Source: a virus
Length of the DNA stretch: 25,423 nt
Reading direction: 5' to 3' (one strand)
IMG/VR virus record: IMGVR_UViG_3300035701_000262
Span: 1-25,423 of that record
Program-made: the position numbers and the translations under genes
In this document: one piece after another, positions 4,682-22,461 of the stretch
How positions within the stretch are numbered: the first letter of the stretch is position 1
How the letters are laid out: every line of letters begins with the position of its first letter
The notes under the pieces: model-generated
Database searches by the model: none
Told to the model about the DNA's origin: nothing
Seen by the model: the letters and a program-made list of their open reading frames with translations, nothing else

Positions 4682-5494
4682 TTACGGATAACTTTTCATC
4701 ACCTCTGAGCCAACTGAGAACAATTCTATTTTTCCTGCGCTACCATTTGTAAAATCAAATACACAGTAATGACCTAACACTCCGTGAGATTCAGCAATTG
4801 AATTTTTAGTGTAAAGAATATATGGGTCTTGCGTTGTTATTGGAACAGTATTAGGTAAATTTGTATTTACAATTATTCTATTTATACCTGATGTGTAATC
4901 TTGTATAATATTAGATACTTTACCTGCAAAAAATATTGAATTAGCAGGTAGTATTGCAAAATATATAGAGTCACCAATACTAATCATTCCTCCAATAGAT
5001 ACCAATGGCGATATTGAAAAATTAATTTGAGTAGAAAGTCCCGGCGTTACACTAATACTTTTTCCTATACCACTTGTACTTCTTATTGACAACTCTCCTG
5101 AGTCATTGTTTCTTATAAATGAAAAATAGCTTGATTCTTTTCTTTCAAAATAACCTGACTGAACTTCGCCAGAGTTCTGTAAATCAGTAACAAGACTGCC
5201 TGACCACGTTGAGTCACCTTCTAATACAATGGTCTTAAATAGTTTGCTTTCAAGTGGTGCGTCATTTATAACTGACTTTATTCTTGATGATGTAAAAGAT
5301 AAAGCAGGAGTGCCTACTTTATCCCACCATTGCTGATAAAAAGTATTTCTTAAATCAGTTGCATTATGACGATATATATCACCACCTTTAAATGTGTACA
5401 GGTAGTTATTCATACCAATCATCCAATCAGGTTCAAAAGAGTAGAAGGACACCCATCCTTTTACCGCTTCGCTATATGTTAAAGTATATGTCAT
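4682..5494 (-). CDS. Conserved tail-associated protein (270 aa)
   Basis: The N-terminal region is highly distinctive: MTYTLTYSEAVKGWVSFYSF then EPDWMIGMNNYLYTFKGGDI, YRHN (residues 1-44), a Trp/Tyr-rich beta segment that I associate with a conserved gene following the muzzle gene in phages of Bacteroidota. The middle contains FTSSRIKSVINDAPLESKLF and STWSGSLVTDLQNSGEVQSGYF, consistent with a beta-sheet protein that may form part of a propeller-like surface. The C-terminal part contains SVTPG and INFSISPLVSIGG-type strands. No enzyme motif is visible. It lies 9 bp after the cysteine-rich gene and 23 bp before the GNAT-like gene. A structural tail role is likely; a function cannot be named. Confidence 0.72.
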   Translation of the reverse strand: MTYTLTYSEAVKGWVSFYSFEPDWMIGMNNYLYTFKGGDIYRHNATDLRNTFYQQWWDKVGTPALSFTSSRIKSVINDAPLESKLFKTIVLEGDSTWSGSLVTDLQNSGEVQSGYFERKESSYFSFIRNNDSGELSIRSTSGIGKSISVTPGLSTQINFSISPLVSIGGMISIGDSIYFAILPANSIFFAGKVSNIIQDYTSGINRIIVNTNLPNTVPITTQDPYILYTKNSIAESHGVLGHYCVFDFTNGSAGKIELFSVGSEVMKSYP

Positions 5495-5503
5495 AGTTAT
5501 TTT

Positions 5504-6082
5504 TTAATCAATACAATCACAAGAATCAAATTGAACTATTGCTGCTCCTGTATCTATTGTAGGAAATGTTCCCGATAAAATACACATACCTCCTGTAAAT
5601 CCCACATTTACAAGTATATTTTTAGGCGTGCCATCACAATCTGTATAAGATACTGTTACGCTTTCAGTTACATTAGTTATACTCCATGTCTCACATGGTC
5701 CTACACAACATCCACAATTTCTATTTATACTTATAGTAGCATTGCCTGTTTGAACATTAGGAATATCTCCATAACCAACGCATATGTCTACATTTGTACC
5801 ATCAGGAAATTCTTCAACTACAAGTCCTCTATTTCCACAAGCAGCATATTTTAATTGAAATGGTCCTTGATTACCCACTACATTCCAACTCGTACAAGGC
5901 TGACTACAGCAACTAGGACATTGTTGTAATGGAAGCAGTTTACAATTAACTAACTCTCTAACAATACCACCTCCTGCATAGAATCCATCAGGAGCACACA
6001 TTGTTAATGCAGCATCAAGAAATACAGCAGTAGCTGAATAAAGGTTATCGGCATTTAAATAAAATGGTTGTGTTATTGGCAT
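5504..6082 (-). CDS. Cysteine-rich tail-tip protein with two tandem domains
   Basis: The first 50 residues (MPITQPFYLNADNLYSATAV onward) form a conserved head that I associate with crAss-like tail genes. Two tandem copies of a cysteine-rich domain follow, at about 58-125 and 125-190. The cysteines of copy 1 (59, 63, 82, 101, 123, 125) and copy 2 (126, 130, 149, 167, 188, 190) have nearly equal spacing (4, 19, 19, 22, 2 against 4, 19, 18, 21, 2), each with a PC-x-x-W start and a CxC end. A third copy ends the muzzle protein encoded just upstream. There is no signal peptide. The cysteines may form disulfides after release from the cell or bind metal. A decoration of the tail tip or a receptor-binding function is likely but not shown. 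Confidence 0.75.
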   Translation of the reverse strand: MPITQPFYLNADNLYSATAVFLDAALTMCAPDGFYAGGGIVRELVNCKLLPLQQCPSCCSQPCTSWNVVGNQGPFQLKYAACGNRGLVVEEFPDGTNVDICVGYGDIPNVQTGNATISINRNCGCCVGPCETWSITNVTESVTVSYTDCDGTPKNILVNVGFTGGMCILSGTFPTIDTGAAIVQFDSCDCID

Positions 6083-6091
6083 AATTTATTT

Positions 6092-9000
6092 TTATGGTGG
6101 CGTACATCCGCAACTATCTACAGTTAGTATAGGATTACCTTGTGTTATTTCATATTGTATATTAGGTGTACCTGCTGAGTTTATACAAATTGTTAGAGGT
6201 GGATCATCTTCTTTTAAAGTTACTTGATATAATCCGGGAGTACCACAAATTCCATTTAAAAAACCAATTACACAATCTGCTCCATTTGGATTTATTGTTA
6301 TCTCTACACATTCAGAAGGTCCACAATAAGTACATTCGCAACATACAGCATTTATATCTGTAGGGTCATAACATAATCCTTGTGCTACTGATGATGTTAA
6401 ATCCCAAATTAAATATAAATACTCACCTGAATAAGTGCTAGAAGGAACTGTAAATTCAGCATAATACAAACTTGAACTTGCAGAAACAATTGGAGTAGCT
6501 GTATAAGTATTTACATTATTTAACATTGCATTTATATCAATCGTATTATTTCCATACAATGTACTGCTTTTTAAATACTTAAACTTATCTCTGCTTGAAT
6601 TTTGGTATAATCCTGTTGCAGTAATCAAATTTGTTTGCATTCTCATTGTGCTACCTCCTTGAGGGAAACCTGCATTTCCTTCAGGACCTGATACTATATT
6701 GTACCAAGAAACTAAAGGAGATGTTGTTCCACTTGCAAATGTTACAAAGTTAGACTGTAATGCGCCTGTAAATGTTCCATTTGTGTATCTATATTGAGCA
6801 TCAATAGTGTCTCCTGCTTCTGAGTTTATAGTAAGAACAACCTGTACTATATTTAAAGTCTTAGCCAATGGACATGCTACATTTACACTAAGCGTAACAG
6901 CTCCTGTATATCTTATTTTAATGTTTGCAACTTCAATATTGTTAACTCCTTTTGAAAAAGAAAACAAGCCATCTTCGTCAACAAAACCCGACTCGGTATT
7001 TACTAAGTTAAAATTTGCAATTATATTAAAAGATTCACCGCTTTCTATTGATTGTATATTGTATGTTATATTAACATCTCCAACAAGAGCTCCTACATCA
7101 ACACAATAATCAAACTCAGCATATCCTATTAATGGATCAATCGCATCATTAAGCGTAAGTGTTTGATTTGTTCCACATGGAATACATTGAGGACTAATAG
7201 GGAGTAATCTATCATTTGATACCAATACATACTCATTTGAGTAAGGGTCATATCCTCCAAGTTTTTGTGTATTAAAAGACCTATTGAACTCATCTCTAAA
7301 CCAAGTTCTCATATTGGCATCAGAGATAACCATTAACTGCTCGTTTGAGTATGAGTCACCTCTTAATTGCAATACAACACCTCTTTTTGCATCAGTAAAA
7401 TATCTATCTGAACCCCATTGTACATAACTCTCAGGATTAAAACTTATACCATATTTATCAGTACGAGCAATTTGAGTTCCCAATACTTCAGGTACTGATG
7501 TAATTGCACCCCCTGCCGCAGCATCAGACAACAAGTTTTTACCTGCTAATACGTAAGATATTTTATCTTCTTGCAAAACAAGTACATCTGTTTGTCTTCC
7601 ATCCATTTTAAATATCTCGCCAAATGATGTTTCTAATCTTTTATAATTTAAAAGACCTAAATTAAACTCGTTTAACTTATTTACATTTGATTCGGCATTA
7701 AATATACCGCTATATGTAATATCAGCAAATCTATCAGCTTCTTTGTAATCTTGCGCAGATACTTGAGTTACACGATTACCTAAATTCATAGGTACACCAA
7801 CAATTGAATCTCTGATTTTATAACTTTCAGCTCCGTTACCAAATGTAAAGCAGTTAAAGAATCCTGTATCAATAATTGCAGGTAGTGATGATGTTTGTGT
7901 TTGAACATTGCCTGAATGGTATCCATCTTCATCAATAGCAAAGGATAAGTCATTCTCAAAGAAAATATCAGGTAGTGAATCTTGTGGTTCTGTTTCAAAT
8001 ATAAAAAGATTATTAGCCCTAAATACTTGAATATTAGCAGAAGTACAAGATCGTCTTTTGTCATTTCCTCCTATACCTATTGTACAAGGGTCTGTTCCTC
8101 TTAATACCAATACAAGTTCATTGGTATCTGTAAGTCTAGCAAATTGATAATAGTTTGTACATAGAGCAGAAGGTATAGGGAAAGGTCCTGTAGACGATGT
8201 AGTCATTAATGTTGGGATATACTCATTCTCAATTGGACAACCACTTCCGCCTACATTTTTAACTCCTGAGTCTATTAATGCTTCTACATTATCTCCATTC
8301 CACCAATCAGCCATATTATCATAATTGTTTGAAGATATCAATGTCAAATCCAAAGTATACTCTCTTCTTTCACATTGTCTATTTCCTGCTCCTGCACCTC
8401 TTCTTTCAAATCTAATATTTATAACTATTTTACTTCCTGCAGGAACTGTGTAGTCAATAAACATACCCGGATTGCTTGGATCTGCAATATTCATTGGATA
8501 TGTTAAAATTGCTCCTGCTCCTGCACCGGGATCTTTGCATCTGCTTTGAGATCCGGGAGCTACAGTTGAATTAGGGTCTTCAACAACAACAAAATCGTTT
8601 GGATTTATTTTCATATACACACCTGCAGGTGGAACTACATTTGTCTCAGGTTCAATAAATCCTTCTGCTTGCGATTGCGTTTCAAGTACAGTAGCATAAG
8701 TGCAAGTCTGAGTAGGACCATTTGAATCTGCTTTTACAATCAATCTATCTCCTTTCTCAATCTTTCTTGAATTTTCTCCTTCAAGTAAAAAGTAAACCTC
8801 ATTATTTGTAGGACTTTTAAAAAATATTGAACTATAAATAGTTTCATAATTTTCTTGGTCAGGTTTTATAACAAACTTATACCTTGTAGCCCAATATGGA
8901 GCAATCTGTGTAGTTGGTATAGTTACTTGTATTGAGTTCTTTCTATCTGCAAAACCACATGGAATTTGCTCGGTATCGCTACGCGTACTAACCAATGCTG

Positions 9001-10810
9001 TTGATGACCTGTTAAATTCATCCATATATACCATACCAATTTGGTAACCACGATTACTATGTAGACTTCTTGGATTTCCTATCTCTTGAAATGTAGCTTC
9101 AGCAAATGTGTATGAGTAGTACTCGTAAGCATTTACAGTTGGAGTAGTAGTATCATCTACGTACCTCATTGCAATAATCTTAAGACCAATCACACTACTT
9201 CCCGGACTTGTAATAACTTCAACAGCTTGACCCCCTACTGATATACCACTTTTGTATTTAGTAAGTGTGCCTCCACTATAATCCAATGTTGCAGGTAGTG
9301 CACAGTTTACAGAATCTGTAAATGTTATACCTGTACATGAGTTAAAAGGGAATACTGTTTGAATATTCCCCAATGGTAACGATGTCCCTATAGCATTTTG
9401 AAACTCAACACTTGTCGCCATTTCATACACAGAATTGTAATCTTGCAATAAGAAAAAAGAAAAGTTTAAACTTAAAGATTCCGTTTGTTCAGTAGGAGTT
9501 ACATCTCCTGAAAAATCAGCATGAGATATTGATAACTCCAAAGAAAGAATTGCACCCTGAACTAAATTTGCTCCTGTAAAATCAACTTCAACTACAGAAT
9601 TTGGAATTGTTTTTATAATATCTATACTATACTCTCCTGATACCGTATTGTCGTCTAAACTTGATTCGCCTATAATCTCAGATATAAGTGTTGTTTGATA
9701 TTCTAACTTTGTAGGAGAATTATTTTTATCAATCAAATCGTATCCTTCTACATAATTACCATACATTAATCTATTGCCCATTAATGTTTGAGATTTAGCA
9801 AATCTTGGTACGTTATCATAAAGTCTTAAAAGCTCAGATTCAGGAAGTATAGTAAATATCTTGCTATTGTCAAACGTATATTGCTTTGGAGCATTATTGC
9901 CAAATCCTGCTTGTTTTTTATTTATCTTCTCAATTACTTTTATAACATTGCTTGACATTTGTTTAAAAAGTAAGTCAACGCCAACTACCAATGGACCACC
10001 TGTATTATAAGTTATAATAGCAGTATTACAAGCATTTGTCATCCCTTCATTTAAATAACTATTTATAGTAAATTGGAAAGGCTTAGGAACAAATGATGGA
10101 GCAGACCATTGCGATGTTGCAGAATACTCGCCATCTGCGTACTTATATCTATAAGCAAAACAAATAAATCTAGTATCCATAAATGTAGACTGACTATTTG
10201 TTACAATAGGTTGAACTACAGGAGATTCTAATGGTGGTTTTTTAATAACCAATAATTCTTCTGATGTAATTCCATTAAAATCAAATTGATTTGTAGGAAG
10301 ATTATAAGTTCTTTTTATGTTTATAAATCTTGGAGGATTATAGTCGTCAGTAAAAAATAATAAATCTCCAATTATATTTACTCCTGTAATTAAATAATTT
10401 TCATTAAAATTTAAAACAACAAATGAAACAACATGATACGTTAAAATGCCTGTAAGTATATTTAACGATACAATCATGTCCAATTTGACAGAACCTGTAG
10501 ATGGGGGCATAACAAATGAAGGATCTGTAACAAACCAATAAATAATTTCATTTGCATCATCAGCTATTGCTCCTATACATTTTGCATTTATACTTAATGG
10601 AGCAGCAGAAAAATTTAAAAGATCAATATTAAATGCTAATCTTGATAAAGCAATATTACCTTTTGTATTCTCAAGAACACCAATCTCAGAATCTTCAGTA
10701 GAACCCATCCTGATATTCATAGCATCAATATACTCTCCATTAGGAACAACTCTTTCGTCAAAAGTTTTGTTCATCTTTCCTGCTACGAAGTTTCTTGATA
10801 ATTTTCCCAT
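6092..10810 (-). CDS. Tail stabilization / muzzle protein
   Basis: This 1572-aa protein is the largest in the window. The N-terminus has the hallmark SRNFVAGKMNKTFDERVVPN then GEYIDAMNIRMGSTEDSEIG and ENTKGN (residues 5-52), known from crAss-like stabilization (muzzle) proteins and many podovirus tail-nozzle relatives of P22 gp10/T7 gp12. Residues 142-165 (GVNIIGDLLFFTDDYNPPRF) and about 1140-1195 (RGVVLQLRGDSYSNEQLMVI, GGYDPYSNEYVLV) look like blades of a beta-propeller-type nozzle. The long middle part contains inserted beta domains. The last 80 residues (C1490-C1569) form a cysteine-rich domain also found twice in the next gene. The protein should sit at the distal end of the short tail and gate DNA exit. 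Confidence 0.85.
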   Translation of the reverse strand: MGKLSRNFVAGKMNKTFDERVVPNGEYIDAMNIRMGSTEDSEIGVLENTKGNIALSRLAFNIDLLNFSAAPLSINAKCIGAIADDANEIIYWFVTDPSFVMPPSTGSVKLDMIVSLNILTGILTYHVVSFVVLNFNENYLITGVNIIGDLLFFTDDYNPPRFINIKRTYNLPTNQFDFNGITSEELLVIKKPPLESPVVQPIVTNSQSTFMDTRFICFAYRYKYADGEYSATSQWSAPSFVPKPFQFTINSYLNEGMTNACNTAIITYNTGGPLVVGVDLLFKQMSSNVIKVIEKINKKQAGFGNNAPKQYTFDNSKIFTILPESELLRLYDNVPRFAKSQTLMGNRLMYGNYVEGYDLIDKNNSPTKLEYQTTLISEIIGESSLDDNTVSGEYSIDIIKTIPNSVVEVDFTGANLVQGAILSLELSISHADFSGDVTPTEQTESLSLNFSFFLLQDYNSVYEMATSVEFQNAIGTSLPLGNIQTVFPFNSCTGITFTDSVNCALPATLDYSGGTLTKYKSGISVGGQAVEVITSPGSSVIGLKIIAMRYVDDTTTPTVNAYEYYSYTFAEATFQEIGNPRSLHSNRGYQIGMVYMDEFNRSSTALVSTRSDTEQIPCGFADRKNSIQVTIPTTQIAPYWATRYKFVIKPDQENYETIYSSIFFKSPTNNEVYFLLEGENSRKIEKGDRLIVKADSNGPTQTCTYATVLETQSQAEGFIEPETNVVPPAGVYMKINPNDFVVVEDPNSTVAPGSQSRCKDPGAGAGAILTYPMNIADPSNPGMFIDYTVPAGSKIVINIRFERRGAGAGNRQCERREYTLDLTLISSNNYDNMADWWNGDNVEALIDSGVKNVGGSGCPIENEYIPTLMTTSSTGPFPIPSALCTNYYQFARLTDTNELVLVLRGTDPCTIGIGGNDKRRSCTSANIQVFRANNLFIFETEPQDSLPDIFFENDLSFAIDEDGYHSGNVQTQTSSLPAIIDTGFFNCFTFGNGAESYKIRDSIVGVPMNLGNRVTQVSAQDYKEADRFADITYSGIFNAESNVNKLNEFNLGLLNYKRLETSFGEIFKMDGRQTDVLVLQEDKISYVLAGKNLLSDAAAGGAITSVPEVLGTQIARTDKYGISFNPESYVQWGSDRYFTDAKRGVVLQLRGDSYSNEQLMVISDANMRTWFRDEFNRSFNTQKLGGYDPYSNEYVLVSNDRLLPISPQCIPCGTNQTLTLNDAIDPLIGYAEFDYCVDVGALVGDVNITYNIQSIESGESFNIIANFNLVNTESGFVDEDGLFSFSKGVNNIEVANIKIRYTGAVTLSVNVACPLAKTLNIVQVVLTINSEAGDTIDAQYRYTNGTFTGALQSNFVTFASGTTSPLVSWYNIVSGPEGNAGFPQGGSTMRMQTNLITATGLYQNSSRDKFKYLKSSTLYGNNTIDINAMLNNVNTYTATPIVSASSSLYYAEFTVPSSTYSGEYLYLIWDLTSSVAQGLCYDPTDINAVCCECTYCGPSECVEITINPNGADCVIGFLNGICGTPGLYQVTLKEDDPPLTICINSAGTPNIQYEITQGNPILTVDSCGCTPP

Positions 10811-12808: not shown

Positions 12809-13552
12809 CTATATTGAACAAGCCTCTAACATTTTTAGTGAATCAAGCCCTTCATCGCTTTTCAGGTAAGAACCTGTTGCATCGTAAGGATCATCACCAA
12901 ATGGTATCGACATCATTTTTTTCTTATTTGTAGGAGTATTAAACCATACTTCTTTGTCGTTATTACGCAAAGCTAATAATTTATTCTCAAAAAATTGTCT
13001 AATTTTTGCTTGGTAATTCAACTCAGGATCGTTAATTATATTTAAAAACTCTCTTGGTTCTTGTCTAGCAAAAATTAAAATATCTCTTCTCAACTCTGCA
13101 GTAGATATTAAAGAAGGGTCTTTACCAAATAATACTCTTGTAAGCATTTCAACTTGGTCAATTGATAATTGACGAGCTTCTATTAACGCATCTACTTCTA
13201 TATTCATATTAGCAACTTCATCAGAAGCTTCTTTCTCTTTATCTACCTCTGTAAATGTAACACCATTTAAAGGATGGTAATGTAAGAACTCTTGTAATAC
13301 AGGATTGTTTTTTGGAACACTCAAAAATCCATCTTCAAAAACAATTGGCTCAAGAATAGCATTGCCATCTTGCTCATCTTCAAATGGTGACTTTTGATTT
13401 ACTGAATATCGTAATGCACGATTAACATTGTTTTTCTCATCAAACCACATCAAAGGGAATCTATGGTGGTTTCTTGATGGTAAAGTATAGGATAAGGGGC
13501 TTCCTATTTTCAACTTGTAAATTTTATTTACAGGTACTGTAGCTTTTGTCAT
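12809..13552 (-). CDS. Conserved protein downstream of MCP, possible capsid-associated protein
   Basis: I do not recognise a named family for this 247-aa protein, but its N-terminal pattern resembles a protein group found next to capsid genes in many phages. The pattern is a strand-rich start, then FPLMWFDEKNNVNRALRYSV, then SPFEDEQ, then IVFEDGFLSVPKNNPVLQEF and LHYHPLNG up to residue 97. The second half is helical (ALIEARQLSIDQVEMLTRVL and onward). The N-terminal half could bind the capsid or portal, and the C-terminal part may be an auxiliary or head-completion module. It has its own A-rich leader and is flanked on both sides by terminators, so it may be expressed separately from both the head and the tail genes. 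The stop codon is TAG. Confidence 0.75.
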   Translation of the reverse strand: MTKATVPVNKIYKLKIGSPLSYTLPSRNHHRFPLMWFDEKNNVNRALRYSVNQKSPFEDEQDGNAILEPIVFEDGFLSVPKNNPVLQEFLHYHPLNGVTFTEVDKEKEASDEVANMNIEVDALIEARQLSIDQVEMLTRVLFGKDPSLISTAELRRDILIFARQEPREFLNIINDPELNYQAKIRQFFENKLLALRNNDKEVWFNTPTNKKKMMSIPFGDDPYDATGSYLKSDEGLDSLKMLEACSI

Positions 13553-13561
13553 TTTATATAA

Positions 13562-13576
13562 TTTAATTTGATTTTA
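13562..13576 (-). promoter_or_regulatory. 15-base leader element, copy 1 (before the 247-aa gene)
   Basis: TAAAATCAAATTAAA on the coding strand is identical to the sequence at 16218-16232 directly before the scaffold-like ATG. Here it is 9 bp before the ATG. It may be a translation enhancer or binding site; in AT-rich DNA some chance similarity must be allowed. Confidence 0.35.
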
Positions 13577-13577
13577 A

Positions 13578-13609
13578 AAATAAAAATAGGGAGTGCATTG
13601 TGCACCCCC
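13578..13609 (-). terminator. Hairpin terminator after the MCP gene
   Basis: On the transcribed strand GGGGGTGCA-CAA-TGCACTCCC forms a 9-bp stem (one G-U pair) with a 3-base loop at 13589-13609, followed by TATTTTTATTTTT. It lies 15 bp after the MCP stop. The stem is GC-rich against a very AT-rich background, so selection for an intrinsic terminator, perhaps partial, is likely. Confidence 0.85.
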
Positions 13610-13624
13610 TAATTTAAATATATA

Positions 13625-15076
13625 CTATCCATAACGGAATAATACGAAGTTGTTTGCACCCAAAGTACATACACAACGCTCAGAAAGGAAGTTAACCTCC
13701 ATTGCATCCAAGTCGCTTGTTTGAGCACCTCCGGCAGAACCTGTAATCCAAGTTTTGTATCTGCGGTCTTCAGCTTCAGAAGCACGGTATCTAACGTGTA
13801 AGAATGGTCTCTTAGCGTTTTTACCCATGATTTGATCGTAAACTGAAGTAGAACCTGCAGGAACTAATAAACCTGTGATTGTACCTGTTGCAGAAGCAGC
13901 AGTAGCACTAAGACCACCACGCATTGTTGGATCGTTTAAGTACTTCCAATCAGACTTGTAGAAATCGTAACCTCTACGGAATCCTGTGAAACCTAAGTTT
14001 AACGCCATTGCAACATCATTGTCAAACAAACCGAATGAAGCACCTTGAGCAGGGGCAGTACCACCTGATCCTGCAGTACCTAAACCATTCAATCCTGCTA
14101 ACATGTTGTCAATGTCAAAACTTAAACCACGATTTACAAATACTACGTTTTCTTCAATAGCACCTTGCTTATCTAAACGAGATACGATTGTGTCCCAATC
14201 AGTAAGTGTAGTTGGTGTGCCACCACCCCATACGTTACCACGATTGTTTACAACGTAGAAAATACCTTCAGAACCTGCAGAACCTGCAACACCTGCAGTA
14301 CCTAATACAGTAATTGCTCCTGAACCTACTTCAGCAGGAACAGCTTCAATCATTGCAGTTTCTAAGTAATCTTCAAAACGTAAACGAGTCTCATGCTCTG
14401 ATTTCAAATACCAAAGGTATCCTGTAGCACCATTCTCAGATGTTACCTCAACCCATCCAATTTGAGCCATATCAGAACCATTTACAGCATATTTATCTTT
14501 AATGATAATAGGCTTGTTGGTGTAGATATCGTCATCAGCTTCTAAAGAACCAACCATTCCGTTTGTTCCTTTCTTAAACTCAGAACCATAAATAAATACA
14601 GTACATTGAGTAGATATAGCAAATGTCTGACCATTTGCTTCGTAATAAGCTACGTTAAATGTCAATGTTCCAACAGAAGTAACAACAGCTTTGTTAAAAA
14701 TACCTGAGGTATTATTTTGAATCATTACTGTTTGTCCAACACGAATTGCAACTTGAGTAACTCCTGTATCAGCTACTGTGATTGTTGCTGTATCAGAAGC
14801 AGCAGCTGCACCTGAAGTACAATTTGTGTATTTAATGTGTAAACGACCTTGTTCTGCCCATTTGATTTGGTCAGAGTTAGAAGGCATTTCAGCACCTACC
14901 ATTCTTAAGAATGAAGATACCGTTCTATTACCGTAACGCTCAAATTCTTTCTCATAAGTATCAGGAAGATACTGATTCAAGAAATCGAAATTGGTAATGT
15001 AGTTTGTTTGTAACGCCACTTGCTGCGGTGCCGGTTGCAACGCAAAGGTGGGGTTATTTAATAAAGCACTTGCCAT
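13625..15076 (-). CDS. Major capsid protein (HK97 fold)
   Basis: This 483-aa protein builds the icosahedral head shell. The N-terminal signature (NYITNFDFLNQYLPDTYEKE at 25-44, then FERYGNRTVSSFLRMVGAE and SDQIKWAEQGRLHIKY up to 83) is the pattern I associate with crAss-like major capsid proteins. The rest shows alternating short strands and Gly/Ala loops, as expected for the HK97 P- and A-domains. An Ala/Gly-rich loop near residues 333-348 (GLGTAGSGGTAPAQG) is probably flexible. The gene is visibly richer in G+C and in preferred codons than its neighbours, which fits very high expression. It sits 19 bp after the scaffold-like gene and is followed by a hairpin terminator. The ATG is chosen by the A-rich leader and the conserved N-terminus. 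Confidence 0.93.
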   Translation of the reverse strand: MASALLNNPTFALQPAPQQVALQTNYITNFDFLNQYLPDTYEKEFERYGNRTVSSFLRMVGAEMPSNSDQIKWAEQGRLHIKYTNCTSGAAAASDTATITVADTGVTQVAIRVGQTVMIQNNTSGIFNKAVVTSVGTLTFNVAYYEANGQTFAISTQCTVFIYGSEFKKGTNGMVGSLEADDDIYTNKPIIIKDKYAVNGSDMAQIGWVEVTSENGATGYLWYLKSEHETRLRFEDYLETAMIEAVPAEVGSGAITVLGTAGVAGSAGSEGIFYVVNNRGNVWGGGTPTTLTDWDTIVSRLDKQGAIEENVVFVNRGLSFDIDNMLAGLNGLGTAGSGGTAPAQGASFGLFDNDVAMALNLGFTGFRRGYDFYKSDWKYLNDPTMRGGLSATAASATGTITGLLVPAGSTSVYDQIMGKNAKRPFLHVRYRASEAEDRRYKTWITGSAGGAQTSDLDAMEVNFLSERCVCTLGANNFVLFRYG

Positions 15077-18702: not shown

Positions 18703-20948
18703 CGAATTATTTGACTTGTTGTACCATCATTGCTATACCTTGCGAAGTTAATACTAATTTTTGATTCTTTTTTTTCAGGAACATACATATGTTTTTGATT
18801 AGCCATAATTGCCAATCCTGAACTTATAGCCGCATCAAATTTAGTTCTGTCGTTAATATCAAACTTTGCCCAATCTTCTAATGTTCTTGTAAATGGCATT
18901 GTACCCATTTCATCTGAACCTCTATACGCACCTACTAAATCCATTCCTATGTATCGCTCAATGTAAGACTCGATTGCGGATGCATGCGATTGTTTTACAT
19001 CTTCAGAAGAGTTTGGTATACCACCAAGTTCTCTTTCTGTTTTTGTTAGTTTAGCATATTGCTTATCAGGTCTATTCATACAAAAATTCCTATAACCTCT
19101 ATTTTTAAAATGGTATAGTAATCTTGGTTTGTTATTCTCAATAAGCACAGGCATACCATAAAACACACAAGCCATTAATACATCTTCAAAAAATATCTCA
19201 GCCGTCTGAGGTCGTGCTATATATTCTAAAAAAAACTCGTTTGCAGGGCCTTCATCCATATGAAATTTAGTCATTCCATGTAATGCTCCATTAGAACCTC
19301 TACCCCCCACTACTGCAGATATATCATAGGGATCGCAACCAAATGAACCTATGTGCTCGTTACCGGGATAAAATAACTCTCCTCTTCTATAAACATTATT
19401 TTGTAAATGCTTATTAGGAATCCAACTTACTAAAAATCTACCATTTCTATCAGGTGTCCATACTACTGTACTATCCTTGTCTCCATCTTTCCAATGAAAA
19501 GAACCTTTTGTTATATAATGTTCTTTAATCATTGAGTCGTTATAATCAATCTGTTGGTATATTTTAGTAAGATTAAATAAAGCTTCTTTGCTTTCATCTC
19601 TAAACGCATGTGATTCAGTACGTGGAAACTGTCTATAAAACTCATTCAAAGCATCAGCATCATTTTTTAACGAATCAACCTCTGCTTCCCAATAATCTAA
19701 TGCGCCATTTTTTATAACCCCCCCATCAACACCTTCTATTTCTTGCAATGGCTTTCTAAATACAGGCATGCCATATCTATCAATAAAGCCTTCCATGTTC
19801 CATTCCATAGGTATAAACAAAGCATATAGCCCTGACTTTGTTTGCCCATTAGCATTTCTTGAATGTATACGTGAATCTTCGTATAGCTTTTTAAAGTTAT
19901 CTCCACCCTTGCTTAAAGCATTTGATGTAGAACCCATCATACACTTGCCAATCACTTTACTACCTAATCTCAAACAAGTTTTAGTTACCCTCCAATTGTT
20001 CAATATATTGTTTGGCTTAATCCACTTACCACTCTCGTCATGAGCCAAAAACAACAACTTCTCACCATCATAAGAGTTCTCTTCTGTATTCTTCCAATCT
20101 ATTGTGGTATCCAATCCATCCATATCATTGTTGCCCACATTGTGCATGTTCTTTTTAGTAATTTTAGATGCAGGTATCCTAAATGCCAACTCAGCTTTTG
20201 GTTTATCCATGCCATCCATAATAGGTCTAAAAAAAAACGGTAATCTGTTATTTATTGGAACAACTTTGTCGGTAAACATTTTTTTAGCATCACTACCTGT
20301 TTTTGATAGGATACCAATACGAGAGTCCCTTGCAAGTGTTCCTATATTTATACACTCTGATGATGACATAAATGAAAATCCTGAACGTCTTATTTTTAAG
20401 TATATCATACCAAAAGACCTGTAGTCTGCTCTGCATGCTTCCCAAAAAATAAAATATATTCTGTTTGCTTCTCTAAAGTCAGGATAGCCAATATCAATAC
20501 TTGCCCATTGAAGATACATCCAATGCGAACCTGTTATATAAGTCTTTACACCATTGTTCATAAACCAAAATCCATTCTCTCTATAATCAAACTGCTGTTC
20601 AATATAGTCTATCCAACGGTCTTTAAATTGAGGAGGCATTTCATTCCAATGAAATATTGACTTCATTTTTGACAAGTCTTTTGGTATCTCTTCTCTTTGC
20701 CAATACTGTCTTGATTTCTCTGAATCTCTTTGATGTATTTTATCGGGATATTCGGGGAGTGCTATAAGCAGACCTGATATATTTATGATTTGACCTATTT
20801 GTCCTGTCTTTGAAATGACTATTAAGTCATACTTGTCATTATACCCATATACCCAACTTCTTGCCTTGTTTTTCTTAACAAGTTCATTTGTAGGTACGTA
20901 TTCATGTGCTACACTATAAATTGTATTATTTAGACCTTCTCTCTGCAA
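18699..20948 (-). CDS. terL: Terminase large subunit (TerL)
   Basis: This 749-aa ATPase/nuclease pumps DNA into the prohead through the portal. In the ATPase domain, residues 185-193 (KIRRSGFSF) form a deviant Walker A lacking the usual GKS/T, residues 298-305 (LLFLAHDE) are the Walker B with catalytic E305, and GSTSN at 339-343 fits the coupling motif. The nuclease domain has the RNase H-like acidic triad: D539 in FGCDPYD, E604 in VLIENNKP and D650 in SSEDVKQSHA. The length is at the long end for TerL and typical of crAss-like phages. The gene overlaps its upstream neighbour by 23 bp and ends with TGA in an ATGA junction with the portal gene. All motifs are intact, so it is probably functional. 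Confidence 0.95.
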   Translation of the reverse strand: MQREGLNNTIYSVAHEYVPTNELVKKNKARSWVYGYNDKYDLIVISKTGQIGQIINISGLLIALPEYPDKIHQRDSEKSRQYWQREEIPKDLSKMKSIFHWNEMPPQFKDRWIDYIEQQFDYRENGFWFMNNGVKTYITGSHWMYLQWASIDIGYPDFREANRIYFIFWEACRADYRSFGMIYLKIRRSGFSFMSSSECINIGTLARDSRIGILSKTGSDAKKMFTDKVVPINNRLPFFFRPIMDGMDKPKAELAFRIPASKITKKNMHNVGNNDMDGLDTTIDWKNTEENSYDGEKLLFLAHDESGKWIKPNNILNNWRVTKTCLRLGSKVIGKCMMGSTSNALSKGGDNFKKLYEDSRIHSRNANGQTKSGLYALFIPMEWNMEGFIDRYGMPVFRKPLQEIEGVDGGVIKNGALDYWEAEVDSLKNDADALNEFYRQFPRTESHAFRDESKEALFNLTKIYQQIDYNDSMIKEHYITKGSFHWKDGDKDSTVVWTPDRNGRFLVSWIPNKHLQNNVYRRGELFYPGNEHIGSFGCDPYDISAVVGGRGSNGALHGMTKFHMDEGPANEFFLEYIARPQTAEIFFEDVLMACVFYGMPVLIENNKPRLLYHFKNRGYRNFCMNRPDKQYAKLTKTERELGGIPNSSEDVKQSHASAIESYIERYIGMDLVGAYRGSDEMGTMPFTRTLEDWAKFDINDRTKFDAAISSGLAIMANQKHMYVPEKKESKISINFARYSNDGTTSQIIR

Positions 20949-21207
20949 ATCCTTGTTTTGTATCTGTTTTACTAATACCTCTATCCATAGAGTCTATGTT
21001 TTCTCTTTCCAATTCAATTCTACTTAGTATTTCAAAAGCATCAAATATTGCTAACTTTTTTGACATCGCTGCATTCTTAAGCTTGTCGGCAGATAAGTCA
21101 TCGTCTGAGTTTATCTTTATGATGTCCTCTTCTGCAACTTTTATCAGTTGCTCAACAGCTTTATGCCCTGCTGCAATTATTTTTAATTTTACTTCTCTAA
21201 TGTTCAT
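20926..21207 (-). CDS. Candidate small terminase subunit (93 aa, helical)
   Basis: This short, highly charged, helix-rich protein ends inside the TerL gene (23-bp overlap), the usual place of a small terminase. Its core DKLKNAAMSKKLAIFDAFEI (41-60) followed by LSRIELERE looks like a continuous amphipathic helix, suited to oligomerisation. The N-terminus (NIREVKLKIIAAGHKAVEQ) could form a short helical DNA-binding unit, but no clear helix-turn-helix can be called. The C-terminal tail is Lys/Arg/Asp-rich and probably flexible. It is smaller than most TerS proteins. Crassvirales often lack a recognisable TerS, so the assignment rests on position, size and helicity. It could also be an unrelated packaging accessory factor. 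Confidence 0.4.
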   Translation of the reverse strand: MNIREVKLKIIAAGHKAVEQLIKVAEEDIIKINSDDDLSADKLKNAAMSKKLAIFDAFEILSRIELERENIDSMDRGISKTDTKQGFAERRSK

Positions 21208-21673
21208 TTTTTTCTAAAAATATTACTTGTATTAATCTTGAACAGTCACCTTCTCCAAAGTTTTTAAATATAGTTCTTGAGTGTGGAGCATTTGAATTAA
21301 ATGCAATCATTCTATTAAACTTTGAAAGCACTCTACATAACTCATTATTTTCTTTATCGTAAATTGTAGTTCCATCATCAAACGGATGATATTTACTAAG
21401 ATACAAAATGCAAGTGATATCTCCCATCATATCATCTTTATGTATAAAATTTGGCTCTTCTTGATTTAATGGCGACTTTCTTACAAAATTAAATTTCACT
21501 TTATATCTTGGATACAATAATTCAATATATCTAGCAAACTCATCATTATCTCTTGCTTGTATATTTTTAAATACATTGACACCATCTGTTACATCGTAAA
21601 ATTCTCCTTTTAAAATATCCTCTACATATTGAATTGGATTATCCAACACATTGTCAAATGATATTAAATTCAT
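21197..21673 (-). CDS. 2-oxoglutarate/Fe(II)-dependent oxygenase (DUF6445-like)
   Basis: This 158-aa protein has the full ligand set of the 2OG/Fe(II) dioxygenase jelly roll: H78 and D80 in FIHKDDMMGDITCILYLS (HxD), H131 in NAPHSR as the distal histidine, and R146 in SRLIQVIF, placed 15 residues later as the 2-oxoglutarate-binding arginine. The spacing and the PHSR motif are typical of small phage and bacterial members annotated as DUF6445 or prolyl hydroxylase-like proteins. Such enzymes couple 2-oxoglutarate decarboxylation to hydroxylation of a protein, nucleic acid or small molecule. The substrate is not shown here. The collagen-like fibre two genes upstream is one candidate. The ATG lies in an ATGA overlap with the GroES-like gene, and the 3' end overlaps the next gene by 11 bp. 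Confidence 0.72.
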   Translation of the reverse strand: MNLISFDNVLDNPIQYVEDILKGEFYDVTDGVNVFKNIQARDNDEFARYIELLYPRYKVKFNFVRKSPLNQEEPNFIHKDDMMGDITCILYLSKYHPFDDGTTIYDKENNELCRVLSKFNRMIAFNSNAPHSRTIFKNFGEGDCSRLIQVIFLEKNEH

Positions 21674-22233
21674 AGCTTAATTGTTATTTGATGATCCATA
21701 ATTCGATACAACTTTTCATCGTCAACAGTAAACTCGTACTCAGAATCAAACTTGTAACAAACAACATCTCCTGCTTTTATTCCTTTACTAATCAAGTATT
21801 CATTTGGGTACTTCATTATACCCATCAATGGCTCATTAGTAAAACACTTCTTGATGTAGCATTCAATTGCCGGCAATGGCTTTACAAAACAATACTTGTC
21901 ATACGCGTTCCACGTAGAACTTTTTTTGTACATAAAAAACTGATCAGTTTCAATAAAGAAGTTATCATCTCTAAAGAAACTCTTACCACTTTTTTGACGA
22001 CCCTTCATGTCGTTGTAATACTTAAAAACATTATGATGAACGAGTAATATATCACCCGGAGTAATTGGGCCGTTGTAACCTAAAGGGACTTCTACGACTT
22101 CTGCATATCGGTTAGAAAACATGTGGTCTTCCTCTGAAGTACTAACCACTATCTCTACTCCTGATATGTCTTTTGTGTTGTCGTATCGTTTCCCCTTCAA
22201 TGGCTTTGCTATGAAGTAGAATGGTGAACGCAT
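21670..22233 (-). CDS. GroES-like co-chaperonin fold protein
   Basis: The N-terminal half (residues 1-105) follows the Cpn10 order: an opening beta-strand (FYFIAKPLKG), a flexible loop with SGVEIVVSTSEED at 24-36 that parallels the GroES mobile loop and its hydrophobic I-V-L tripeptide (here I-V-V), a strand RYAEVVEVP, and the turn ITPGDILLVHHNVF where GroES has VGDxV. Residues 93-103 (FIETDQFFMYK) match the closing strand. The C-terminal half (about 137-187) repeats the logic: GIKAGDVVCYKFDSEYEF then EKLYRIMDHQITI. In T4, gp31 is a GroES analogue needed to fold the capsid protein. This protein could serve the MCP or the fibre. It overlaps the oxygenase gene by an ATGA junction. Assignment is by fold pattern only; sequence identity to true GroES is clearly low. 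Confidence 0.55.
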   Translation of the reverse strand: MRSPFYFIAKPLKGKRYDNTKDISGVEIVVSTSEEDHMFSNRYAEVVEVPLGYNGPITPGDILLVHHNVFKYYNDMKGRQKSGKSFFRDDNFFIETDQFFMYKKSSTWNAYDKYCFVKPLPAIECYIKKCFTNEPLMGIMKYPNEYLISKGIKAGDVVCYKFDSEYEFTVDDEKLYRIMDHQITIKL

Positions 22234-22461
22234 TTAAAAATTTATATTATATTCGATTGAAATTGGTATTGTTGAATTGAACTCTTTCCAAAGCACTATT
22301 TCACTTTTTTCATTTATTATATACACTAATATAGAACTTGACTCTTCATCATGTCTTATTAGGTGAATCTCGTTAGAATCACCTAATACTTTTTGCCCTA
22401 CAATATAATGCATTGCACCTCCTTTATAATCAGGACCAACTGATATTTTTCTTATATCCAT
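22234..22461 (-). CDS. Conserved hypothetical protein (75 aa)
   Basis: This is a small soluble protein with no recognised domain. It starts with MDIRKISVGPDYKGGAMHYI and continues with alternating hydrophobic residues (EIHLIRHD, SILVYIINEKSEIVLWKEF), which suggests a compact beta-sheet fold. It starts inside the fibre stop codon (TAATG, one-base overlap) and ends directly before the next ATG, so it is translated with its neighbours. From memory, small proteins with the same MDIRKI..GPDYK..MHYIVGQ opening occur near terminase genes in other phages of Bacteroidota, but I cannot name a function. An accessory role in fibre or assembly is suggested only by position. Confidence 0.75.
   Translation of the reverse strand: MDIRKISVGPDYKGGAMHYIVGQKVLGDSNEIHLIRHDEESSSILVYIINEKSEIVLWKEFNSTIPISIEYNINF

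Follow-up and report, generated by a model that had tools for sequence, protein, structure and literature searches.

The 25,423-nucleotide stretch analysed here (the window; positions 1 to 25,423 of the IMG/VR record IMGVR_UViG_3300035701_000262) comes from the structural-gene region of an uncultured crAss-like phage, with its genes on the minus strand. It contains a muzzle, the protein of the tail tip, whose N-terminal and C-terminal parts are coded by separate genes for proteins of 1572 and 270 amino acids (aa), the latter being referred to as muzzle-C; between them lies a 192-aa gene, the slot gene. Three copies of a small cysteine-rich module are found in this region, two in the slot protein and one at the end of the 1572-aa protein. 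The reading that we favor, and consider rather probable, is that these six-stranded modules are beads of a cassette that can be exchanged and that the crAss muzzle presents at the tail tip, where they would tune cell-surface recognition. It is built, by inference, on five things seen in the sequence: a module family, a split muzzle, a conserved anchor, a variable slot and one exchanged block.

A cysteine-rich domain in two adjacent muzzle genes

An initial annotation, made from the DNA alone, had proposed that one cysteine-rich domain is present three times in two adjacent tail genes, and profile matches and predicted strand order agree with this. The cysteines that it listed were found at the same places: 59, 63, 82, 101, 123 and 125 of the 192-aa protein in copy 1 (spacing 4-19-19-22-2), 126, 130, 149, 167, 188 and 190 in copy 2 (4-19-18-21-2), and 1496, 1501, 1522, 1542, 1567 and 1569 of the 1572-aa protein in copy 3 (5-21-20-25-2), which holds an additional cysteine, C1513, that had been missed. 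Its coordinates are also consistent, 5513 being the end of copy 2 and 6343 the start of C1490. Cysteines are clustered at the two ends of the module (CxxxC ... CxC). The 192-aa protein is 8.3% cysteine, as against 0.73% (59/8057) for the other 20 listed window proteins taken together, and 11 of the 29 cysteines of the 1572-aa protein are in its last 172 residues.

An iterated hidden Markov model (HMM) search seeded with copy 2, over 148 dereplicated slot proteins and muzzle tails, recovered 56 modules, including all three copies of the window. Since iteration can draw in strangers, groups were held out for the homology tests: a profile was built from 41 modules, none of them from the groups of copies 1-3, and the scores were compared with those of 1000 shuffles in which the cysteines were fixed; the test is not wholly independent, as group membership was taken from the iterated search. 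Copy 2 matched this profile with E 2e-14 and copy 1 with E 1e-8, scores that none of the 1000 shuffles reached, and a profile-profile comparison of the copy 1 group with the copy 2 group gave a probability of 97.1% (E 5.8e-11). On these profile matches, copies 1 and 2 are clearly homologous. Copy 3 alone obtained 8.7 bits, equalled by 5 of the 1000 shuffles, and the held-out profile gave no significant match inside the 1572-aa protein, so that copy 3 was missed there; with its group held out, it joins the family only as a subfamily profile. This profile, made of seven sequences, matched the rest of the family with a probability of 95.3% (E 2e-8), with values of 55% against the copy 1 group and 17.7% against the copy 2 group.

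Profile comparison of the segments had been proposed as a check together with structure prediction of each, and both speak for a common domain. In AlphaFold2 (AF2), copy 3 was modelled from an alignment of its own subfamily only, and the 192-aa protein from an alignment without any module of that subfamily. The mean predicted local distance difference test (pLDDT) was 77.5 for copy 3 (80-95 over ten-residue blocks for residues 21-90 of 95, about 50 for the first 20) and 85.6 for the 192-aa protein, whose predicted template modelling score (pTM) of 0.46 makes the arrangement of its domains unreliable. All three copies have six predicted strands in identical order, located at residues 63-70, 75-81, 87-92, 97-103, 109-112 and 115-121 in copy 1 and at 130-136, 142-147, 153-158, 164-169, 175-178 and 182-188 in copy 2. 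In each copy, strand 1 begins at the second cysteine, the third comes after strand 2, the fourth is in strand 4, and the last two are at or just past the end of strand 6. The predicted folds, compared by strand order and cysteine place rather than by superposition, agree in both, and all three copies fit a family definition of six strands, with a CxxxC or CxxxxC where strand 1 starts and a CxC at or just past the end of strand 6.

The weak direct match of copy 3 and its poor matches to the two single groups would also be expected if it were no homologue but a small cysteine-rich beta domain of separate origin at the end of the muzzle, with a spacing alike by chance. This is very improbable in view of the subfamily profile match to the remaining family, of a strand order and cysteine placement obtained from alignments that share no module, and of the tandem arrays of loci L016, L006 and L020, where ordinary modules come after one of the copy 3 type. 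Copy 3 is an old, divergent member of the family, linked to it by intermediate sequences and by the shared predicted strand order.

The family comprises 105 distinct sequences in the loci examined, with up to five modules in tandem in muzzle tails. In scans of 40 modules against Pfam and PHROGs, only single-member matches were obtained (best E 0.0018 and 0.0068), none of them convincing; the 192-aa protein had no match in either database at E <= 1, 10 module-bearing slot proteins had none in PHROGs at E 0.01, and a PDB sequence search with modules gave nothing below E 0.41. The cysteine module is thus a new domain family, as no convincing Pfam or PHROGs model was found in the scans of 40 modules. 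The AF2 model of the 192-aa protein matched eight BFVD models at E <= 0.001, seven of them nameless. Among named phages, the 192-aa protein matched record MW202828 (E 2e-3) and four further records at E 0.7 or worse; a two-module slot protein matched MW202828 through the anchor only, and a five-module array had no match at E 1. The module was detected in none of 296 bacterial genomes from the phylum to which G002, a Cytophagales metagenome-assembled genome (MAG), belongs, at E 0.001, with a query that does match G003. Literature searches gave nothing on the module or the slot among the matches listed.

The initial annotation had further suggested that the copies arose by local duplication, which is not supported in this simple form. 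In the module tree (89 modules, 66 columns, many unresolved forks), copy 3, represented by an identical copy from L003, belongs to a clade of nine muzzle-tail modules with support 100/99, and copies 1 and 2 are placed outside it. With muzzle-tail modules of four other phages (L016, L067, L077 and L002) copy 2 shares 34-40% identity, compared with 23% with the adjacent copy 1. Simple tandem duplication is rejected on the basis of these separate clades and identities, and slot contents also change by recombination, as described below. The tree requires a minimum of eight changes between muzzle and slot gene, of which three are forced by starred branches.

A split muzzle with a variable slot

The 1572-aa and 270-aa proteins match the crAss muzzle families PF25731 (35.8 bits) and PF25729 (44.4 bits), respectively, both above the curated Pfam cut-off of 27. 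Elemovirus, phi38:1 and Gundel encode the muzzle in one gene, unbroken across the point at which the window carries its insertion. A contiguous-muzzle profile (A7) was built from the C-terminal regions of four records (two Elemovirus, phi38:1, Gundel): its columns 2-172 aligned to residues 1026-1205 of the window muzzle and columns 178-412 to residues 4-269 of the 270-aa protein. The two pieces are separated by 367 additional muzzle residues, with copy 3 at their end, and by the 192-aa gene. The window muzzle is therefore not the single contiguous polypeptide of other crAss muzzles, being distributed over three genes. According to this alignment, the muzzle chain is interrupted after residue ~1205, and the sequence pattern, read together with the published domain list, apparently places the break within a propeller-blade hairpin. 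The features are listed in Table 1.

Table 1. Coordinates of the muzzle genes, the cysteine modules and the divergent block in the window
Feature	Position	Strand	Description
1572-aa muzzle protein	6092..10810	-	N-terminal part of crAss muzzle; PF25731, phrog_14478
192-aa slot ('mid') gene	5504..6082	-	Anchor and copies 1 and 2
270-aa protein	4682..5494	-	C-terminal muzzle part, PF25729 crAss_MUZ_C
Anchor, 58 aa, N-terminal in 192-aa protein	5909..6082	-	Co-varying C29-C47 pair
Cysteine module copy 1	5708..5908	-	Residues 59-125 of 192-aa protein; iterated HMM, profile-profile, shuffle test, AF2
Cysteine module copy 2	5513..5707	-	Residues 126-190 of 192-aa protein; HMM, profile, AF2
Cysteine module copy 3	6104..6325	-	Residues 1496-1569 of 1572-aa protein; divergent muzzle-specific subfamily
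Extra C-terminal muzzle stretch	6092..7195	-	Residues 1206-1572; absent from contiguous muzzles; copy 3 at its end
Divergent block versus G001	5369..5918		Identical DNA on both sides

The three genes (4682-10810) share one reading frame, with a TAA stop and a 9-base gap between neighbours, as if a single gene had been broken twice; in the relatives, frames and gaps between muzzle, slot and muzzle-C genes differ from locus to locus.

The organization of the slot was followed in 81 loci, namely the window and the best 80 of 338 viral-contig stretches found with the 270-aa protein, duplicates being kept. The anchor is present in 79 of them, as part of a separate anchored slot gene in 72 and inside the muzzle tail in 7; the other two are L057, where the contig end cuts it, and L059, where the muzzle frame is broken in two. 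The 72 loci contain 60 distinct slot proteins, 11-12 of which have the cysteine module, and 59 distinct muzzles, 29 of which have a module ending 1-3 residues before the C-terminus; modules are found in both genes in 8 loci, in one gene in 30 and in neither in 34. A second scan used the anchor itself and retained the best 80 of 408 relative-encoding stretches, which were chosen for the anchor and include near-duplicates. Taken together, the two scans gave 107 distinct complete anchored proteins of 120-634 aa, and 21 of these carry one or two cysteine modules.

Pairs drawn from the 103 distinct loci of both scans were grouped by the identity of their muzzle-C proteins; identity in the slot remainder, that is, the sequence after the anchor, was counted over the longer protein, so that differences in length weigh in. 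At 85-95% muzzle-C identity (73 pairs), median identity was 88% in the anchor versus 31% in the slot remainder, and values below 60% were found in the remainder of 48 of the 73 pairs and in the anchor of 4. At identities of at least 95% (53 pairs), the medians were 97% for the anchor and 90% for the remainder, with 6 pairs below 60% in the latter. Therefore, very close relatives mostly retain the cassette, and moderately close ones mostly do not. Judged from these alignments, the gap between the muzzle halves is a cassette slot, in which a constant anchor is followed by highly variable modules.

Some of the other slot contents could be named. The FISUMP domain (Fib_succ_major, PF09603) is present in 4 of the 60 slot proteins (L011, L012, L050 and L061; E 5e-42 to 5e-37), straight after the anchor in L061 and at residues 324-438 in the other three, and 5 of the 60 match phrog_21885, of no known function (best E 5.4e-6). 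Against NCBIfam the 60 slot proteins, 11 with the module, gave FISUMP and single or double weak matches.

Two relatives were found in cellular assemblies. L172 (WTJX01000555.1) is a contig binned in a Cytophagales MAG, in which 6 of the 11 window proteins tried have matches, in the gene order of the window, with no detection of the 136-aa gene. L172 is thus probably of phage origin, and it hints at a Bacteroidota host. L173 (CP070801.1, 550884-561039), in the chromosome of an Aenigmatarchaeota MAG, comprises a partial muzzle tail, an anchored slot gene and a partial muzzle-C. Its phage stretch adjoins runs of N and both sides look by eye like cellular genes; it is probably a scaffolding chimera, though N may also be masking.

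Exchange of slot contents by recombination

A nearly identical phage contig, IMGVR_UViG_3300031707_000148 (G001), allowed a change in the slot to be examined. The two are 97.2-97.5% identical in three aligned pieces (3622-24337), with identity near 100% for the most part and several divergent blocks. The deepest divergence in reliably aligned sequence is in the cysteine modules, with 71-72% identity per 150 bases. The first and last differences of this block are at 5369 and 5918, and no difference is found in 5000-5368 and in 5919-6384. Besides copies 1 and 2, the block includes the gap between the two genes, ~126 bases from the start of the 270-aa gene and the final ~10 bases of the anchor; 99 differences fall in the 396 bases of the two modules (5513-5908). 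Synonymous divergence (dS) from G001 is 0.88 in copy 1 and 0.41 in copy 2, compared with 0.05 in the anchor, 0.08 in the muzzle-C gene and 0 in muzzle residues 301-1350.

High synonymous divergence within the block and identical flanks point to recombination and not to fast point mutation: rapid divergence by point mutation is ruled out, and the block with copies 1 and 2 was imported by recombination in this pair. Diversity-generating retroelements are likewise thought to vary tail proteins in crAss-like phages (PMC12386605), and were considered as a source of the block; they are ruled out, since the differences are not confined to adenine (63 of the 99 involve A) and dS is 0.41-0.88.

Copy 3 is unchanged between the window and G001. 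In L005 it is 59% identical to that of the window, whereas full 150-residue stretches of the muzzle are 80-98% identical in nine of ten cases and 61% in one (751-900).

Other divergent blocks in the G001 pair lie at 10200-10800, 13500-15000 and 20700-22300; they include the initial ~300 muzzle residues (dS 0.35 and 0.12). This distribution suggests several recombination spots in the structural genes. In addition, ~460 bases (21208-21668), covering most of a 158-aa open reading frame (21197-21673), are absent from G001 at the matching place.

A possible role in host recognition

The insertion is carried by the extra tail of the muzzle, with copy 3, and by the separate slot gene, with the anchor and copies 1 and 2. 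In the model proposed here, the three chains would reassemble into one muzzle, the anchor docking the slot protein at the muzzle break. The slot protein would lie on the outer side of the muzzle, with its beads projecting outward and contacting host surface structures, so that an exchange of beads may alter recognition while the muzzle gates ejection. According to PMC10172136, the muzzle of phicrAss001, gp44, is a hexamer at the tail tip, its length varies by insertions, the variation is located in the crass and IG2 domains, and the crass domain likely touches the cell and starts the changes that open the gate. Adhesion is our best guess for the role of the beads.

Several observations weigh against this reading. 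In the three pairs compared, the modules have ratios of nonsynonymous to synonymous divergence (dN/dS) of 0.24-0.64, always less than 1, with no sign of positive selection for point changes; the slot does not always come with a cysteine module, as in the 34 of 72 loci where neither gene carries one; the divergent blocks found outside the slot in the G001 pair mean that exchange is not slot-specific; and no PDB fold of a known adhesin or lectin significantly matched the copy 3 and 192-aa models. For copy 3 the best Foldseek hit had E 0.12 (4fca), BclA-type lectins had E 0.13 and up, and the VIA Z was 5.2; for the 192-aa protein the best Foldseek E was 0.32 and the VIA Z 4.2. Furthermore, no muzzle match was found among PDB sequences, and the insertion point is therefore unmapped on a solved structure. 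Finally, 19 of the 105 modules have lost the third cysteine and retain the fourth, so that at least one pairing is not universal; these modules belong to one muzzle clade, two of them being placed via near-copies left out of the tree.

The first four of these observations also favor an alternative in which the beads only stiffen or cap the muzzle, with no receptor binding, and the variability is drift and recombination in a tolerant surface loop. Yet slot contents vary far more than the anchor and the adjoining muzzle-C gene, as is typical of recognition modules, and muzzle surface loops have been proposed to touch the cell (PMC10172136); purely structural reinforcement is, in our opinion, unlikely.

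The cysteines of the beads would form disulfides that lock beads and joints outside the cell. The module is uninformative in the choice between disulfide and metal, since its own cysteines are mostly invariant. All six are present in 66 of the 105 distinct modules. The anchor is of more use: of 95 distinct anchors, 60 have cysteine at both positions 29 and 47 and 35 at neither, while none has it at one alone, and the two residues flank a hairpin predicted by AF2 (strands 33-37 and 40-45). The co-variation of C29 and C47 looks like that of a disulfide. The initial annotation had regarded cysteine-dense proteins as unusual in a phage made in a reducing cytosol; as reported in PMC10172136, several proteins of the phicrAss001 virion have disulfides, within a portal-vertex protein and linking the tail hub with ring proteins, and the argument therefore has little force.

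Metal binding, also put forward in the initial annotation, gained little from the analysis. In its most explicit form, the CxxxC and CxC clusters of successive modules, together with the CxxC of the anchor, would form joint sites resembling Zn(Cys)4, stable in a reducing cytosol. Four cysteines do meet at each of the two joints of the window protein (C55 and C58 of the anchor with C59 and C63; C123 and C125 with C126 and C130), and one of 40 modules weakly matches the N-terminal Pfam model of sulfocyanin, a family of copper proteins (E 0.0087). On the other hand, no other metal-binding family stood out in that scan, the first cysteine of the CxC is missing in 6 of the 105 modules, with 8 cut off or gapped before the end of the cluster, and C29 and C47 of the anchor vary strictly as a pair, which makes such metal beads improbable. 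It is equally doubtful that the three chains of the split muzzle are joined by inter-chain disulfides, the CCxC/CxC of the muzzle tail pairing with the CxxC of the anchor in an oxidation-dependent, plug-in receptor sensor within the ejection gate.

The exchangeable cassette points to where a group of uncultured crAss-like phages may vary host recognition. It offers a handle, with a constant anchor, modules that can be recognised as one family and a slot placed directly in the ejection gate, and the coupling of receptor recognition to gate opening in crAss-like phages becomes testable on single proteins.

The muzzle and its length variation are already known from phicrAss001 (PMC10172136), and the window proteins of 1572 and 270 aa match the families of gp44; what sets the window apart is a muzzle divided among three genes and a cassette slot where it is broken. 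Elemovirus, phi38:1 (Cellulophaga), Gundel (Tenacibaculum) and phi19:3 (Cellulophaga) have a homologous muzzle-C, with 24-32% identity. Unlike the first three, which have no break at the insertion point, phi19:3 shows the break and an extended muzzle tail, but it has no slot gene. Podoviridae sp. ctfjg026 (MW202828, Manatee Spring) is similar in layout, having an anchored slot gene between muzzle and muzzle-C, a cysteine module at the muzzle end and a muzzle-C 46% identical to that of the window; its slot protein differs, as the anchor is followed by another sequence in which no cysteine module was detected. Exchangeable modules at the tail tip are already a known kind of arrangement; in the phage described here their place is unusual and the domain is new.

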